DNA from: Deltaproteobacteria bacterium
GTDB lineage: Bacteria > Desulfobacterota > Desulfobacteria > Desulfobacterales > Desulfatibacillaceae
Reading direction: 5' to 3'
Assembly: GCA_016235345.1 (NCBI GenBank)
Contig: JACRLG010000011.1
Coordinates: 99,172-163,171 of the forward strand
Length of the DNA stretch: 64,000 nt
A program made the translations under genes and the position numbers. The notes below the pieces were generated by a model. That model ran no database searches. It saw nothing but the letters and a program-made list of their open reading frames with translations, and was not told where the DNA came from. Shown here in pieces: positions 7,528 to 17,888 of the stretch. The stretch's first letter is position 1; each line of letters opens with the position of its first letter.

Positions 7528-8363
7528 ATGAACCGGAAAGCCAAGGCTCTTGTTCCTGGCGAAAAGGCCGCTTCACCCAAACTAGCCGACTTGGTCACCA
7601 TGGAAGACCCGGGCGCGGTTTTGGGCGAGACCCTCGCCGTGGCCCGGCTCATAAGCCCCTCAATTGACACGGTTTTTGTGCGTCATGTTTTCGGTGATGT
7701 CCGGTCCCTGTTCGAGGGCGTCTATCCCCACTACCGGCGCTGCAACACCGATTTCCACGATTTCCAGCACACCACCGACTGCCTTCTGGCAATGGTCAGG
7801 CTCATGCACGGCGCGCATCTGTCCGGTATTGATCTCACCGAAAAGGAAGTGCGGCTGGGACTTGTGACCGCTTTGATGCACGACACCGGCTACATACAGA
7901 AGGACACCGAAACCAACGGCACCGGAGGTTGCTACACAAAGGTGCACGTGGACCGCTCCATCGACTTCATGGAAAGCTACTTCAACCTGCACGGGCTTTC
8001 CGAGGCGGATTTTCACCTGTGCCGCAGATCGCCAGCCGCACCTACCTTGAAAAACTGGTTTTTCTTTACAAGGAATTCTCCGAGGCCGGAATCCCCGGAT
8101 TCAGGGACGAATATGACCTTCTGGTAAAGACAGCCAATTTCTACGACATCACCAAAAAGCGCCTGAAAAACGAGCTTTCCGGGATGAATCATTACGTCAA
8201 GGCCCATTTCCTGTCCAGGCACGGGATAGACTCCGACCTCTACGCAGAGGCCATGGAAAACAACATCAGCTACCTGGACCACGTGCTCGCCTCCTACGGC
8301 GACGACTACAGAAACCACCTGCGCCGGGGCGGGCTGGTCCGTCCAGCTGAAAACCCGGGCTGA
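7528..8363 (+). pseudogene. HD-domain phosphohydrolase remnant (internal deletion and frameshift)
   Basis: The first part (from ATG 7528) encodes an HD-domain protein with HDFQHTTDCLLAMVRLM and ALMHDTGYIQ, the metal-binding His/Asp pairs, then a conserved HVDRS segment. At about 8022-8026 the sequence jumps from ADFHLCR straight into QIASRTYLEKL in another frame, which continues to a stop at 8361-8363. In intact relatives known to me some 40-45 residues, including the second metal-ligand region, lie between these segments. The deletion plus frameshift make this a probable pseudogene. A TTGACA at 7452-7457 with TATTGA 18 bases on may be its old promoter. Confidence 0.75.
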
Positions 8364-10496: not shown

Positions 10497-11396
10497 ATGA
10501 AAATCCTGATAACCGGCGGACTCGGATTCGTGGGAACCTGCCTCACCGGGCGCTTTCTTGAGGAAGGCCACTCGGTGACCTCCCTGGACCGAGCCCCCCA
10601 CGCGAGACTTGCACATCCCGGCTACGCCTATCTGAGCGCCGACACCACCCTCCCCGGCCCCTGGCAGGAGGTCGTGGCCACCCACGACGCCGTCGTGAAC
10701 CTGGCCGGGGCCACCATATTCAAACGCTGGAACGATGCGTACAAAAAGGCCGTCTGGGACTCCCGGATACTCACCACCAGGAATCTGGTGCAGGCCATTC
10801 CCGAAGGAAGCGGAATCACGCTTTTGAGCACCTCGGCGGCGGGCTATTACGGATTTCGGGGGGACGAGGAATGCTCCGAGGACACCCTGCCCGGCGACGA
10901 CTTTCTGGCCAGGGTGTGCGTGGGCTGGGAAACGGAGGCGAAAAAGGCGGCTGACAGGGGCGCGAGGGTGGTTATCACCCGCTTCGGGGTGGTTTTCGGC
11001 AAAAACGGCGGGGCCCTAAGCCAGATGGCCAAAACCTTCCGCCTGGGAGTCGGAGGGCCGCTGGGAAGCGGCAACCAGTGGTTTTCGTGGATTCATATCG
11101 AAGACCTCGCTTCCGCCATGCTCTTTTGCCTCAATAACAAGGCGGTTTCCGGGCCGCTCAATTTCATGGCCCCCTACCCGGTCCGCAACCGCGACATGGC
11201 AAAGGCCCTGGGCCGCGTCCTCAAGCGCCCGGCGGTGATCCCGGCCCCGGCATGGGCGGTGAAGCTCGCCCTGGGCGAGTTCGGGGACGCCATTCTTCAC
11301 GGCCAGCGCGGAGTTCCCACGGGCCTTTCAAAACTCGGCTTTACCTTCAAATATCCCGAAATCGAAGGGGCCATGCGGGAGGTCCTTTTCTCCTGA
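10497..11396 (+). CDS. TIGR01777-family NAD(P)-dependent epimerase/dehydratase (YfcH/SDR39U1-like)
   Basis: Extended short-chain dehydrogenase of 299 residues. The N-terminal nucleotide motif is GGLGFVGTCL, followed by VVNLAGATI and the family hallmark KAVWDSRILTTRNLV. Then come STSAAGYYG with the Tyr, and the C-terminal DUF1731-type segment PAPAWAVKLALGEF...GQRGVPTGLSKLGFTF. The substrate is not established for the family. The stop TGA overlaps the ATG of the next gene by one base, implying translational coupling. Confidence 0.9.
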   Translation: MKILITGGLGFVGTCLTGRFLEEGHSVTSLDRAPHARLAHPGYAYLSADTTLPGPWQEVVATHDAVVNLAGATIFKRWNDAYKKAVWDSRILTTRNLVQAIPEGSGITLLSTSAAGYYGFRGDEECSEDTLPGDDFLARVCVGWETEAKKAADRGARVVITRFGVVFGKNGGALSQMAKTFRLGVGGPLGSGNQWFSWIHIEDLASAMLFCLNNKAVSGPLNFMAPYPVRNRDMAKALGRVLKRPAVIPAPAWAVKLALGEFGDAILHGQRGVPTGLSKLGFTFKYPEIEGAMREVLFS

Positions 11397-12427
11397 TGGA
11401 CTCCCGGAAGGCCATCTGCGACCCCGCAACCCTTGCGGCCATAAAGGGCGCGAACCCGGACTCCGCAACCCTTGTGGTCCGCCGCCATCCCATGCGCATC
11501 CCCGGCCACTTCGCCGCCCTCATCCGTACGCACGACGACCCCCTGGGCCTACAGGCCGTTCCATCCATCAGCGAGCTTCTATGCGACGGCGAAGACGACC
11601 CCCTTTGCGAGGAGGCACAGTCGCCCGTTCCCAACCTGGTCCACCGCTACCCGGACCGGGTCCTCTTCCTGGTGGAAAACCGCTGCGCCCTCTACTGCCG
11701 CCACTGTATGAGAAAGCGCCGCACGGGGGCAACCGGGCCGGTCGCCCCCGTTATCCTGGATCGCGGGATAGGCTACATAAAGGAAAATCCGGCGGTGCGC
11801 GAGGTGGTGCTTTCGGGCGGGGACCCCTTGATGATGGACCGGGACAGCCTTTTGGGGCTTCTGGGGGAGCTTCGGAAAATCCCCCACTTGAAGGCGCTTC
11901 GCATCCACACGAGGGTTCCGGGAGCAGACCCCGCGCGGGTGACGGAAAAACTCGTTTCCGGGCTTGGACGGTTTTCGCCCCTTTTCATCAACATCCAGTT
12001 CAACCACCCGGCGGAGCTGACCGATGAGGCGAAAGAGGCCGCAAGGAGGCTGGCCAAGGTCGGAATCCAGCTTGGGTCCCAGAGCGTTCTTTTAAGGGGG
12101 GTGAACGATGATTCCGAAACCCTGGCCGAACTTTTCACCGGTCTTCTGGGAATGGGGATAAGGCCCTACTGCCTGCACCACCCGGACCCCGTGGCGGGAA
12201 CCGGGCATTTTTCCGTGCCGCTCTCAAGGGGGCTGGAACTGGCGGCCTCGCTTAGGGGCAGGATATCCGGCATGGCGGTGCCCCACTACATGCTGGACAT
12301 TCCGGGCGGGTTCGGGAAAACCGCGCTTTTGCCGGGCTCGGTGGAAATACTCGGAAACGGAAGCTACAGAATCAGGTGCTTTCGGGGGATATGGCGCGAT
12401 TATCGGGACCGGGTTTCCCCCGCCTGA
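11396..12427 (+). CDS. KamA-family radical SAM aminomutase (EpmB/lysine 2,3-aminomutase-like)
   Basis: Radical SAM/PLP enzyme. The cluster motif CALYCRHCMRKR lies near residue 97, the SAM-binding SGGDPL near 140, and the PLP-lysine region DIPGGFGK near 302-308. It is 343 residues from ATG 11396, the first start after the overlapping epimerase stop and close to EpmB length. Classical lysine 2,3-aminomutases are longer (about 410-470). EpmB converts alpha-lysine to beta-lysine for elongation factor P modification; no epmA or efp gene is visible here, so the substrate is open. The 3' end overlaps convergently with rseC by 56 bases. Confidence 0.85.
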   Translation: MDSRKAICDPATLAAIKGANPDSATLVVRRHPMRIPGHFAALIRTHDDPLGLQAVPSISELLCDGEDDPLCEEAQSPVPNLVHRYPDRVLFLVENRCALYCRHCMRKRRTGATGPVAPVILDRGIGYIKENPAVREVVLSGGDPLMMDRDSLLGLLGELRKIPHLKALRIHTRVPGADPARVTEKLVSGLGRFSPLFINIQFNHPAELTDEAKEAARRLAKVGIQLGSQSVLLRGVNDDSETLAELFTGLLGMGIRPYCLHHPDPVAGTGHFSVPLSRGLELAASLRGRISGMAVPHYMLDIPGGFGKTALLPGSVEILGNGSYRIRCFRGIWRDYRDRVSPA

Positions 12428-12851
12428 CGATTCTTCCCATCTTCGGGGTGAATTTTCCGCCCGCCCCCATCCTTCTTCCCAAAATCCTCACCACCAGAAG
12501 ACCTATGGCCAGAAAGCCAAAGCCCACGGCCACCGAGGCTGTTTCCGGGTCAACGCCGAGCCTTCCCGAAAGCGCCTGCCCAAGGAAGGTTCCGCAGAAA
12601 AGGGCCGCCACTGGCGTAAGGTAAACGAAATACGCCCCGGCCAGAACCCGCCTGCTGGAGAGAACGAGGCTCACGGTGTCTCCGGGCAGGGCGCCAAGGC
12701 TGTTATCAACCAGCACGTCAACCTCGTTTCCGCCCCCTAAAGAATGGCAGCCCGACCGGGCCGTGCATGACTCTCAGGCCCCTGTGCGGCACGTGCGCAC
12801 AAGGGCCATGCCGCCGGAGAGCCTCACCACCGTTCCTTCTTCTTCAGCCAT
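12372..12851 (-). CDS. rseC: SoxR-reducing system protein RseC, with in-frame UGA (candidate selenoprotein)
   Basis: Read from ATG 12851 to TGA 12372, with one internal TGA at 12774-12776 taken as an amino acid, it gives 159 residues, the same length as E. coli RseC. Residues 1-50 contain ALVRTCRTGA-U-ESCTARSGCHS, which lines up with the RseC cysteine motif C-x2-C-x5-C; UGA falls at the first Cys of that trio (position 26). Two membrane helices follow (about 73-120), as in the family. RseC helps Rnf-type complexes keep SoxR or other redox centres reduced, and the gene follows rnfB by 41 bases. A small hairpin starts 7 bases after UGA. If UGA is a stop, only GTG 12716 onward (114 residues without the cysteines) could be made. 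Confidence 0.7.
12747..12776 (-). promoter_or_regulatory. UGA codon with candidate bacterial SECIS hairpin
   Basis: Downstream of the UGA (12776-12774) the transcript can form GCA/UGC (3 bp), a 2-base bulge, GCCC/GGGC (4 bp) and a GGUC tetraloop at 12757-12754. The loop starts 17 bases after UGA, i.e. 16 intervening bases, and opens with G. Known bacterial SECIS elements have the apical loop roughly 16-37 bases after UGA with an early G, and the E. coli fdhF element also carries GGUC in its loop. The stem is short, so the fit is suggestive, not proof. Confidence 0.5.
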
Positions 12852-12892: not shown

Positions 12893-14908
12893 TCAGGCCG
12901 CCTCACCGGCCTTGGCGGTTTTTTTGTAACATACAAGACCGCACTGAAGGCAGCGGGACGCCTCGGCCAAAACGGTTTCGGCGTTATAGGCCGCTTCCCG
13001 CTCGCCCGAACCGGGCGCTCCGGCAGGCGTCGGGTTCCTGGGCGCGGGCCTGACCCCCGAAACCTCGAAAACCTTCTGGACAAATGAGGCCGGGGTGCGG
13101 AAATTTTCCACGCGCTTAAGGTCGCCGCCTTCGGAAAGCACGTGCATGGCCGCAGCCGCCCTTCGACCCGCCCCCACTGCGGCGACCGCCGCGAAATAAT
13201 CGGTGCCCGCGTCCGACGGGGCGCAAAATCCAAGGCCGGTGGCTGTGGCCGGGTTCTTGTAGGAGGCCAGGGCCTCCCAGACCACGGGGGAAGCGGCGCT
13301 TGCATCAGGCGCGGCCTCTTCGGAAGCGGCCTTTTCGACAGCCTCATCCACGGGCTTTCTGCGAATAACCAGTTCGGGCACCCGGCCCGATGCGAAGACC
13401 ACGGAAGTGGCCGGAATCTCAACGGTTCCCTCAAGCCCCTCCACCCGCACCGCCGCCAGGGCATCACCCTCGCCAAGAAGCGCGGTGACAGCGCCTGTAA
13501 CGATCCTCACTCCCTCGCCCGGCTTTTCGTCCGGTTCATTCCTCAAGACCGCCACAGAGCCTTCGGGCGCGGCGGCCAGAGCCGCCTTTGAGCCCCCCAC
13601 GAAAACAGGGCGCTCGCCCAGGCCTTCCGGCCCATGCCTCATGACGTCCACCAGCAGAAACACGCCCGGAACCGCAGGACCCGGCCTTTCCCCGCCAAGG
13701 AGCGCAAGCCTCGCGTCCCAGCCGCCAAGGGCCGTGAAGACCGATTCATACCCATCCGCCAGAAGCTGCGCCACGGTCACGTCCAGGCCCAGGACTGTTT
13801 CGGTGCGCACCGTAACGCCCATGGCCGTTACGTCTTCGATCTCGTGATCCAGAACCTCGCGGGGGAGGCGATCCGGGGCAATGGCCATGCGCAAAAGCCC
13901 GCCAGGCATCTCCGTCGCCTCGAAAACCGTGGGGGAATGGCCCAGCCGGGCCAGGAAGTAACCGGTTGAAAGGCCCTCTATGCCGCCGCCCGCCACCGCG
14001 AATTTTTTCCCGGTTTCCGGCGCCTTGCGGGGAAGGACCCTTTCGGTGACCGCGTACTGGCGGTCGGCCAGGAAGCGCTTTACGCAGTTGATGGAAACGG
14101 CCTCGTCGGCAAGGCTTCTGCGGCAGGCGGTTTCACAGGGACGGGGGCAGATGCGGCCTATGATCCCCGGAAAGGGCATCCTCTCCTTGACTACGCGCAG
14201 GGCCTCGTCGAACTTTCCTTCGGCTGCCAGCCCAACGTAGCCGCTTATGGAAAGCCCCGCCGGGCAGGCCGCCTGGCAGGGGGTGACGCACTGGTCCTCG
14301 GTGAGTTCGGCAAGTATCCGGCGCGTGAGGGAGCTTAGGCGGATGATGTGCTTGGGGCAGATTCTCTCGCAGGTTCCGCAGCCGGTACATTTGGCCTCGT
14401 CCACAACCGGGATGCCGTCCGGCCCCATGGAAAGGGCGTCGAAGGGGCAGGCCCTGATGCAGGTGCCAAGGCCCAGGCAGCCGATCCTGCACACCTTGGC
14501 CCCGCCGTGAAGCACGGCGGCGGCCCGGCAGTCCGTAAGGCCCATGTAACGGAACCTGGTTTCGGCCTCTTCCATGCCGTATGTGCAGTCGGGCCGCGCG
14601 AAATCAGGCTCCCTGGCAACCATCGAGACGCCAAGGGCGGCGGCGATGGCAAGGGCCACGTCCTCGCCGCCCGCGACGCAGGAGGTGGCCGTGCTCTTTC
14701 CTTCCACAATGGCAATCGCGTTGGCCGAGCACCCGGCAAAGCCGCAGCCTCCGCAGTTGGCTCCTGGCAGGGCCGCTTCCACGGCGGCTATGACAGGGTC
14801 AACGTAAACGTAGAAAACCTTGCTGGCCACGGCAAGCCCAAGGCCCAGAACAAGGCCCAGAATCCCCATCACCAAAACCGCGATCAACACGAAGGATAAT
14901 GTCATCAA
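12893..14908 (-). CDS. rnfB: RnfB-type ferredoxin subunit fused to a GltD-like flavin oxidoreductase module
   Basis: 671 residues. The first ~35 form the RnfB membrane anchor. A four-Cys Fe-S domain follows (CGGCGFAGC near residue 52, with a further Cys near 77), then two 4Fe-4S motifs (CIRACP and CTGCGTCERICP, roughly 150-185). From about residue 205 it continues as a GltD/NuoG-like module: an Fe-S lead (CVTPCQAACP, CPRPCETACRR) and an FAD-binding stretch (AGGGIEGLSTGYFLARLGH). The second nucleotide-binding region (FVGGSKAALAAAPEG) is eroded compared with GltD. A late CLQCGLVC closes it. Rnf couples ferredoxin:NAD oxidation to ion pumping; no other rnf gene is here, and it follows lptG instead. 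Confidence 0.85.
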   Translation of the reverse strand: MMTLSFVLIAVLVMGILGLVLGLGLAVASKVFYVYVDPVIAAVEAALPGANCGGCGFAGCSANAIAIVEGKSTATSCVAGGEDVALAIAAALGVSMVAREPDFARPDCTYGMEEAETRFRYMGLTDCRAAAVLHGGAKVCRIGCLGLGTCIRACPFDALSMGPDGIPVVDEAKCTGCGTCERICPKHIIRLSSLTRRILAELTEDQCVTPCQAACPAGLSISGYVGLAAEGKFDEALRVVKERMPFPGIIGRICPRPCETACRRSLADEAVSINCVKRFLADRQYAVTERVLPRKAPETGKKFAVAGGGIEGLSTGYFLARLGHSPTVFEATEMPGGLLRMAIAPDRLPREVLDHEIEDVTAMGVTVRTETVLGLDVTVAQLLADGYESVFTALGGWDARLALLGGERPGPAVPGVFLLVDVMRHGPEGLGERPVFVGGSKAALAAAPEGSVAVLRNEPDEKPGEGVRIVTGAVTALLGEGDALAAVRVEGLEGTVEIPATSVVFASGRVPELVIRRKPVDEAVEKAASEEAAPDASAASPVVWEALASYKNPATATGLGFCAPSDAGTDYFAAVAAVGAGRRAAAAMHVLSEGGDLKRVENFRTPASFVQKVFEVSGVRPAPRNPTPAGAPGSGEREAAYNAETVLAEASRCLQCGLVCYKKTAKAGEAA

Positions 14909-17569: not shown

Positions 17570-17715
17570 ATGGCGTGGCTTCCCTGGTTATTACTGCACC
17601 TAACAAAGCTGAAAATTATTCAAAGGCGCTTTTCCTTTTCATATGCGTTCACCCTGCATTTTCTCCCAGGGCAACTGCATATGGAAAATTTCGCCATGAT
17701 TTAAGGGTTAGCGGC

Positions 17716-17785
17716 TTTCCTGGGAGCGCGGGCGTCCCGCCCGCATCGGCGGCAAAAGCGGGCGGGACGCCCGCGCTCCCAGGAA
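17716..17785 (+). repeat. GC-rich hairpin repeat (GAGCGCGGGCGTCCCGCCCGC family)
   Basis: Near-perfect inverted repeat of about 28-base arms around a short spacer, built from CTGGGAGCGCGGGCGTCCCG and its complement. A second copy is at 54111-54175. Read as protein it gives the spurious SAGVPPA..AGGTPALPG peptide often misannotated in genomes. Confidence 0.8.
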
Positions 17786-17859
17786 AAAAACGACTGGGCC
17801 GACTGCCGGTGACGCCTGCTCTTTTCCATATGCGCTCGCCCGATTTTCTCCGGGTTTTG

Positions 17860-17888
17860 TTGACACCCGTTGCGAAAGCGGCTAAATT
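17860..17888 (+). promoter_or_regulatory. Sigma-70-type promoter of lepA
   Basis: TTGACA at 17860-17865, 17-base spacer, TAAATT at 17883-17888, about 90 bases before the lepA ATG. Confidence 0.6.

Follow-up and report, generated by a model that had tools for sequence, protein, structure and literature searches.

The gene rseC, encoded on the minus strand of the window (the whole stretch of 64,000 nucleotides that was analysed), very probably codes for a selenoprotein: the in-frame UGA at its codon 26 would be read as selenocysteine (Sec) by means of SelB and a downstream hairpin, and a full-length RseC would be made. Strong comparative evidence, based on sequence, also points to RseC as a new selenoprotein family. 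An earlier note on this DNA had interpreted the gene as a candidate selenoprotein, an interpretation that is supported here, as the checks run among those it had proposed favoured selenocysteine. The coordinates of the features are collected in Table 1, and genomes and loci are referred to below by G and L numbers, the window belonging to genome G000.

Table 1. Coordinates in the window of rseC, its motif codons, the putative hairpin and the upstream gene.
Feature	Position	Strand	Details
rseC (RseC_MucC family), read through the UGA	12851-12372	minus	159 codons plus terminal TGA
ATG start of rseC	12851	minus	
In-frame UGA, codon 26, proposed Sec	12776-12774	minus	first Cys of C-x2-C-x5-C
Codon 29 (TGC), second motif Cys	12767-12765	minus	UGA in the C-x2-U genomes
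Core of putative bacterial SECIS hairpin	12763-12748	minus	6-bp stem CGGCCC/GGGCUG, loop GGUC at 12757-12754
Codon 35 (TGC), third motif Cys	12749-12747	minus	
Terminal TGA of rseC	12374-12372	minus	
RnfB-like N-terminus fused to glutamate-synthase-small-subunit-like NAD(P)-dependent oxidoreductase	12893-14908	minus	adjoins rseC upstream

The earlier note had claimed that the rseC frame is broken by one TGA alone, that this TGA falls at the first cysteine of the C-x2-C-x5-C motif and that similarity to RseC continues on both of its sides, and all three claims were borne out. Read through the UGA, the frame gives U as residue 26, in the context R-T-G-A-U-E-S-C-x5-C, and the resulting protein matched the Pfam family RseC_MucC (PF04246) over residues 8-138, with 102.5 bits (curated cut-off of 24.4) and an E-value of 2.1e-29. 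The NCBIfam equivalog for E. coli-type RseC (NF008115) gave 52.5 bits, under its cut-off of 184, and the protein is therefore considered a member of the family and not the E. coli equivalog. The AlphaFold2 model (mean pLDDT of 78.1) placed helices at residues 66-98 and 102-130 and was of low confidence near the motif (pLDDT of 51-59 for residues 21-40). Two helices lying between an N-terminal and a C-terminal domain, the arrangement expected of RseC, were thus found in the model, and the membrane topology is predicted from it. Moreover, the RseC profile gave no match among PDB sequences up to an E-value of 1, and a Foldseek search with the model gave nothing with an E-value below 0.001, the weak matches to S1-, IF5A- and cold-shock-type barrels being set aside.

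Some other elements of the window were also observed. The convergent neighbour of rseC (11252-12427, plus strand) is a radical SAM gene, lysine-2,3-aminomutase-like, whose 3′ end overlaps that of rseC by 56 bases. Two overlapping frames on the plus strand (7528-8127 and 7929-8363) look like one frameshifted gene, HD-hydrolase-like by eye, with no Pfam match to either piece. The region around 17700-17870, with the translations GGTPALPGK and RDARAPRKA, one per strand, resembles a common dispersed palindromic repeat.

RseC homologues were searched for in four overlapping sets, comprising 96 relatives (83 with RseC), 395 genomes of the phylum (121 with RseC), 389 genomes of the order (332 with RseC, of which the best 150 matches were listed) and 46 genomes of one further family (40 with RseC). 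The rest of the order's genomes, beyond the best 150 matches, was covered by two UGA patterns alone. At least 10 genomes carried a UGA in place of one or the other CxxC cysteine. Three of them (G000, its congener G001 and G056, which belongs to another family) have the form U-x2-C, and seven have the form C-x2-U, namely G777 and three pairs, each from a single genus (G064 and G142; G156 and G176; G517 and G803). The occurrence of UGA homologues in other species, which is used as a criterion for selenoproteins, thus extends to nine genomes besides G000. The UGA patterns matched no further RseC over the genomes of the order; their Cys version matches 27 of the 45 Cys homologues, and they would have missed G517, G803 and G777, so that further UGA cases may exist unseen. 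In addition, a UGA-first pattern scan of the contigs gave at least 120 stretches, one of which was convincingly RseC (L107, from G001).

Forms with both cysteines were present in close relatives of the UGA-bearing genomes, such as G104 (genus of G056), G110 and G164 (family of G064), and G036, G095 and G131 (family of G176). The codon at the UGA position was TGC or TGT in all 45 Cys homologues with the motif, and the exchange among TGA, TGC and TGT that had been proposed as a check was found both at the UGA codon and at its CxxC partner. Among the non-Sec loci, 45 of 46 held the full motif; the exception, L047 of G023, has lost both CxxC cysteines and kept the third, and was excluded from the codon, hairpin and tree counts. 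The three Cys positions of the motif did not vary in two alignments, one of 13 and one of 32 sequences, in which UGA was written as C. Across the ten genes, Sec would occupy the first or the second cysteine and never the third, which gives a hint, and only that, of a dithiol-type pair.

A tree of 70 RseC sequences was built from the genes at hand and not from all matches, with 10 Sec and 60 Cys forms. The sequences left out were L082 (a second copy in G131), L259, L260 and L263 (from G216, G092 and G272, respectively), the broken copy of G774 and the partial L085. Six changes between Sec and Cys were needed in this tree (bootstrap range of 6-6), at least four of them being forced by the starred branches, in a topology with a largely unresolved backbone, an unsettled bootstrap and a long branch for G777. 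A single ancestral Sec followed by many losses is compatible with the number of changes taken alone, but the two different Sec positions argue for more than one gain.

The reading frame past the UGA was kept like coding sequence in four pairs of orthologues. In the 24 residues that follow the UGA, 16 were identical between G000 and G001, 22 between G064 and G142, 21 between G156 and G176, and 22 between G517 and G803. The differences in these codons, summed over the four pairs, numbered 10, 10 and 34 at the first, second and third positions, respectively; three pairs showed this third-position excess clearly, and G000/G001 showed it weakly (7, 6 and 10). Over the whole stretch past the UGA, the counts for the three pairs first tested were 47/29/63, 9/5/42 and 17/5/41. 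These data bear on the possibility of a true stop, either followed by a restart at the GTG at 12716, which would give a protein lacking the Cys motif, or acting as a regulatory UGA with no Sec inserted. An open reading frame of 114 codons does begin at that GTG, and an in-frame ATG or GTG occurs 9-22 codons past the UGA in seven of the ten genes. However, no ATG, GTG or TTG occurs in frame within 45 codons past the UGA in G056, G156 and G176, which disfavours restart as a general explanation. Furthermore, in-frame conservation covers the residues from the UGA to the restart, C29 and C35 among them, and the UGA falls exactly on a motif cysteine. A true stop of either kind is consequently regarded as highly improbable.

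The same in-frame conservation, with changes mostly at third positions, also stands against a nonsense mutation in a decaying gene or an error of sequencing or assembly, an explanation to which we assign an extremely low probability. Most of the genomes are drafts, and broken copies do occur, as in the second RseC copy of G774 (L271, contig 42), a broken paralogue with a TGA outside the motif and the frame lost. However, in the ten genomes the stop is invariably TGA and invariably falls on one of the two cysteines of CxxC; the genomes of G156 and G176 consist of a single contig each; and the remaining stops inside the listed RseC matches, once fetched and read, were each the gene's own end, except for the G774 copy. 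In the 45 Cys homologues, the single-base changes creating some stop averaged 43.8 per gene, of which 2 lie at the CxxC cysteines (4.8%), while this share rises to 18% when the changes creating TGA alone are counted. The probability of random hits at these sites would be about 1e-8 for six independent lineages (about 4e-5 for TGA only) and, using powers of the same fractions, about 5e-6 for the four changes forced by the tree (about 1e-3 for TGA only).

Of the genes for Sec decoding that the earlier note had proposed to look for, selB, selC (tRNA-Sec) and selD were present in G000. Its tRNA-Sec scored 74.9 bits, over the Rfam cut-off, with ARAGORN in agreement (anticodon tca); selB scored 360.6 bits, above the curated cut-off; and selD contains a TGA in its own UxxK motif. 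As for selA, it was not among the two other long open reading frames beside selB in G000, one of which is a heme b synthase and the other without match. Seven genomes with Sec-RseC (G000, G001, G056, G064, G142, G156 and G176) were covered by the machinery tests. Among them, selB exceeded its cut-off in G000, G056, G064, G156 and G176, with a partial match below the cut-off in G001 and no match in G142, and tRNA-Sec was found in G000, G001, G064, G142 and G176 and not found in G056 and G156. The estimated completeness of G142, G001, G056 and G156 varied from 72 to 86%. For selD, a match was obtained in all 18 genomes tested (7 with Sec-RseC and 11 Cys-only), each holding one TGA, which sits in UxxK in the five genomes where it was inspected (G000, G001, G056, G156 and G176). 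As Cys-only relatives also hold the Sec machinery, its presence is permissive and not diagnostic. The idea that reassignment or a suppressor tRNA makes the UGA a codon for Cys, Trp or some residue other than Sec can be given almost no credence: homologues do carry Cys at the UGA position, but TGA terminates 15 of the 38 non-overlapping open reading frames of at least 200 codons in the window, as well as rseC itself and its upstream gene, so it also serves as an ordinary stop and there is no wholesale reassignment, and the genome holds the Sec machinery together with a Sec-type selD.

Regarding the hairpin, the rule given for bacterial SECIS elements in the available text of PMC13188914 comprises a loop of 3-9 nt with a G in its first two positions, situated 16-37 nt from the UGA, a stem of 4-16 bp and a minimum free energy of -7.5 or lower. 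The window hairpin agrees with every term of it, having 16 nt from UGA to loop, a loop of 4 nt, a stem of 6 bp and -9.4 kcal/mol, and the core in G001 consists of the same 16 letters. The GGUC loop and its distance of 16 nt had been correctly described in the earlier note, but the hairpin was said there to begin 7 bases past the UGA, while the paired core starts after 10 nt (a longer fold begins earlier). A hairpin fitting the position rule followed all ten UGAs, the search being restricted to loops with a G in the first two positions. Conservation among homologues, one of the checks proposed, was thereby found in part: contiguous cores of -8.3 to -10.6 kcal/mol were obtained for G064, G142, G517, G803 and G777, but those of G056 (-5.0), G156 (-3.7) and G176 (-4.5) were weak and fell short of the -7.5 rule, their folds reaching -9.9 to -11.3 with bulges allowed.

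With a limit of -3.7 kcal/mol, chosen after the UGA genes were seen, a hairpin was present in six of six Sec lineages versus 5 and 6 of 45 Cys genes at the two positions (P-values of 3e-5 and 5e-5, respectively). Compared with codon-randomised versions of the same protein, single genes gave P-values from 0.0075 to 0.36, the combined value being 2e-4 for G000, G056, G064, G176, G517 and G777, and 0.007 when G001, G142, G156 and G803 replaced their partners. Moreover, the codon was retained at conserved residues in 14 of 16 hairpin codons versus 184 of 296 elsewhere (three ortholog pairs, P-value of 0.03). Against dinucleotide shuffles, the hairpin was not unusually stable by RNAfold (z of -1.21 for the window and -0.71 for G001). 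An Rfam search of the window stretch and nine other loci matched no SECIS family; as two of these loci hold selD, which was likewise unmatched, this negative is uninformative. Overall, the hairpin evidence for Sec is supportive and not decisive. As a separate observation, the Cys-only rseC of G074 (L033, 1501-1929) contains GCAAGA-GGU-UCUUGC, nearly the same hairpin as in the UGA gene of G056, and the peptide S-A-R-G-S-C can thus encode a SECIS-like hairpin with no UGA; the hairpin of L033 could ease a change from Cys to Sec, or be a relic.

The gene preceding rseC had been named rnfB in the earlier note. Its N-terminus is indeed RnfB-like, but it is not a plain rnfB, being fused to an oxidoreductase. 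An upstream gene of this RnfB-oxidoreductase type was found at all eight Sec-RseC loci scanned (G000, G001, G056, G064, G142, G156, G176 and G517). Ferredoxin-type domains and Fer4_20 appeared in seven of the eight, an RnfB-type FeS domain in five, and a pyridine nucleotide or FAD oxidoreductase domain in most of them; the copy of G056 starts near the contig end, and its oxidoreductase part alone is visible. In G156 and G176, the upstream reading frames, as given to Pfam, were cut at a UGA in place of the first cysteine of an Fe-S motif, which when read through gives GAN-U-GGCG-x3-C-SANAEAI (part of this stretch reads N in G156), while the same site is GAN-C-GGCG in G000, G001, G064, G142 and G517. 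A hairpin also follows this UGA (RNAfold values of -17.5 in L067 of G176 and -17.1 in L068 of G156). In the genus of G156 and G176, rseC and the adjacent RnfB-like gene therefore both look like selenoprotein genes, judging from their sequences.

In the mechanism proposed, SelB and Sec-tRNA(Sec) would decode the UGA at codon 26 as Sec, directed by the hairpin 11-26 nt past the UGA, inside the coding sequence. In the product, the U-x2-C-x5-C site would lie in the N-terminal domain, followed by two membrane helices and a short C-terminal part, and the partner of this protein would probably be the RnfB-like NAD(P)-linked oxidoreductase encoded immediately upstream. By analogy with E. coli RseC, in which Cys26, Cys29 and Cys35 bind an oxygen-sensitive [4Fe-4S] cluster, as reported for the N-terminal domain in the available part of PMC11729352, Sec would stand in the place of Cys26. 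Its most likely role would be that of an Fe-S cluster ligand or of one half of a U-C selenenyl-sulfide pair or switch, which would protect or reset the site after oxidation. On a broader reading, which is possible but tentative, the new family would bind an oxygen-sensitive Fe-S cluster through a selenolate in place of a cysteine ligand, and would serve in the membrane as a partner of Rnf-type electron transfer. Sec would stand at either CxxC position in separate lineages, and in one genus also in the Fe-S motif of the neighbouring RnfB-type subunit, so that two adjacent genes would form a selenium-tuned electron path.

If RseC does contain Sec, a membrane electron-transfer factor joins the selenoproteins. 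The repeated occurrence of Sec at exactly the two CxxC cysteines would suggest that redox or metal chemistry takes place there, and it touches the question in RseC biochemistry of whether the protein holds a cluster, a thiol switch or a regulator. In Clostridium ljungdahlii, rseC is required for autotrophy, according to the text available of PMC9124969. With the standard code, translation stops after 25 to 30 codons, and Sec-rseC genes are therefore likely to be overlooked in ordinary annotation.

Concerning previous descriptions, the statement of the earlier note that RseC is not known as a selenoprotein family agrees with the sources as far as available: neither RseC nor MucC nor PF04246 appears in the 119-entry table of prokaryotic selenoproteins of 2026 (PMC13188914), in the 87-entry table of 2022 (PMC9312934) or among the nine new families of deep-Sep (PMC12013277). 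A literature search for RseC or MucC with selenoprotein or selenocysteine gave nothing relevant by title and the start of the abstract, RseC appearing in the available text of PMC10684804 only inside a reference, and a prior mention is possible.

Compared with known systems, E. coli RseC (the SoxR-reducing system protein) belongs to the same Pfam family as the window protein and is alike in having C-x2-C-x5-C at positions 26, 29 and 35, two helices and a partnership, predicted for the window protein, with an Rnf-type system (PMC11729352, as far as available, for E. coli). They differ at residue 26, which is Cys in E. coli and UGA, predicted Sec, in the window, and in the gene order, since E. 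coli rseC lies in rpoE-rseABC (same source) whereas that of the window follows the RnfB-oxidoreductase fusion gene. The selD of the same genome, a UxxK selenoprotein gene, likewise has an in-frame TGA with a hairpin close behind and would share the decoding machinery, although its protein family is unrelated to RseC. RseC is a small two-helix membrane protein, and none of the 119 families or subfamilies listed in PMC13188914 is RseC/MucC; the closest parallels in the available text are the RnfB-type ‘Fe-S cluster domain-containing protein’ NF005503 (UxxC) and a DUF1858 protein, predicted selenoproteins of the UxxC/CxxU kind in which Sec likewise replaces one Cys of CxxC; in G156 and G176, a gene of the RnfB type with UGA lies directly upstream of Sec-rseC.
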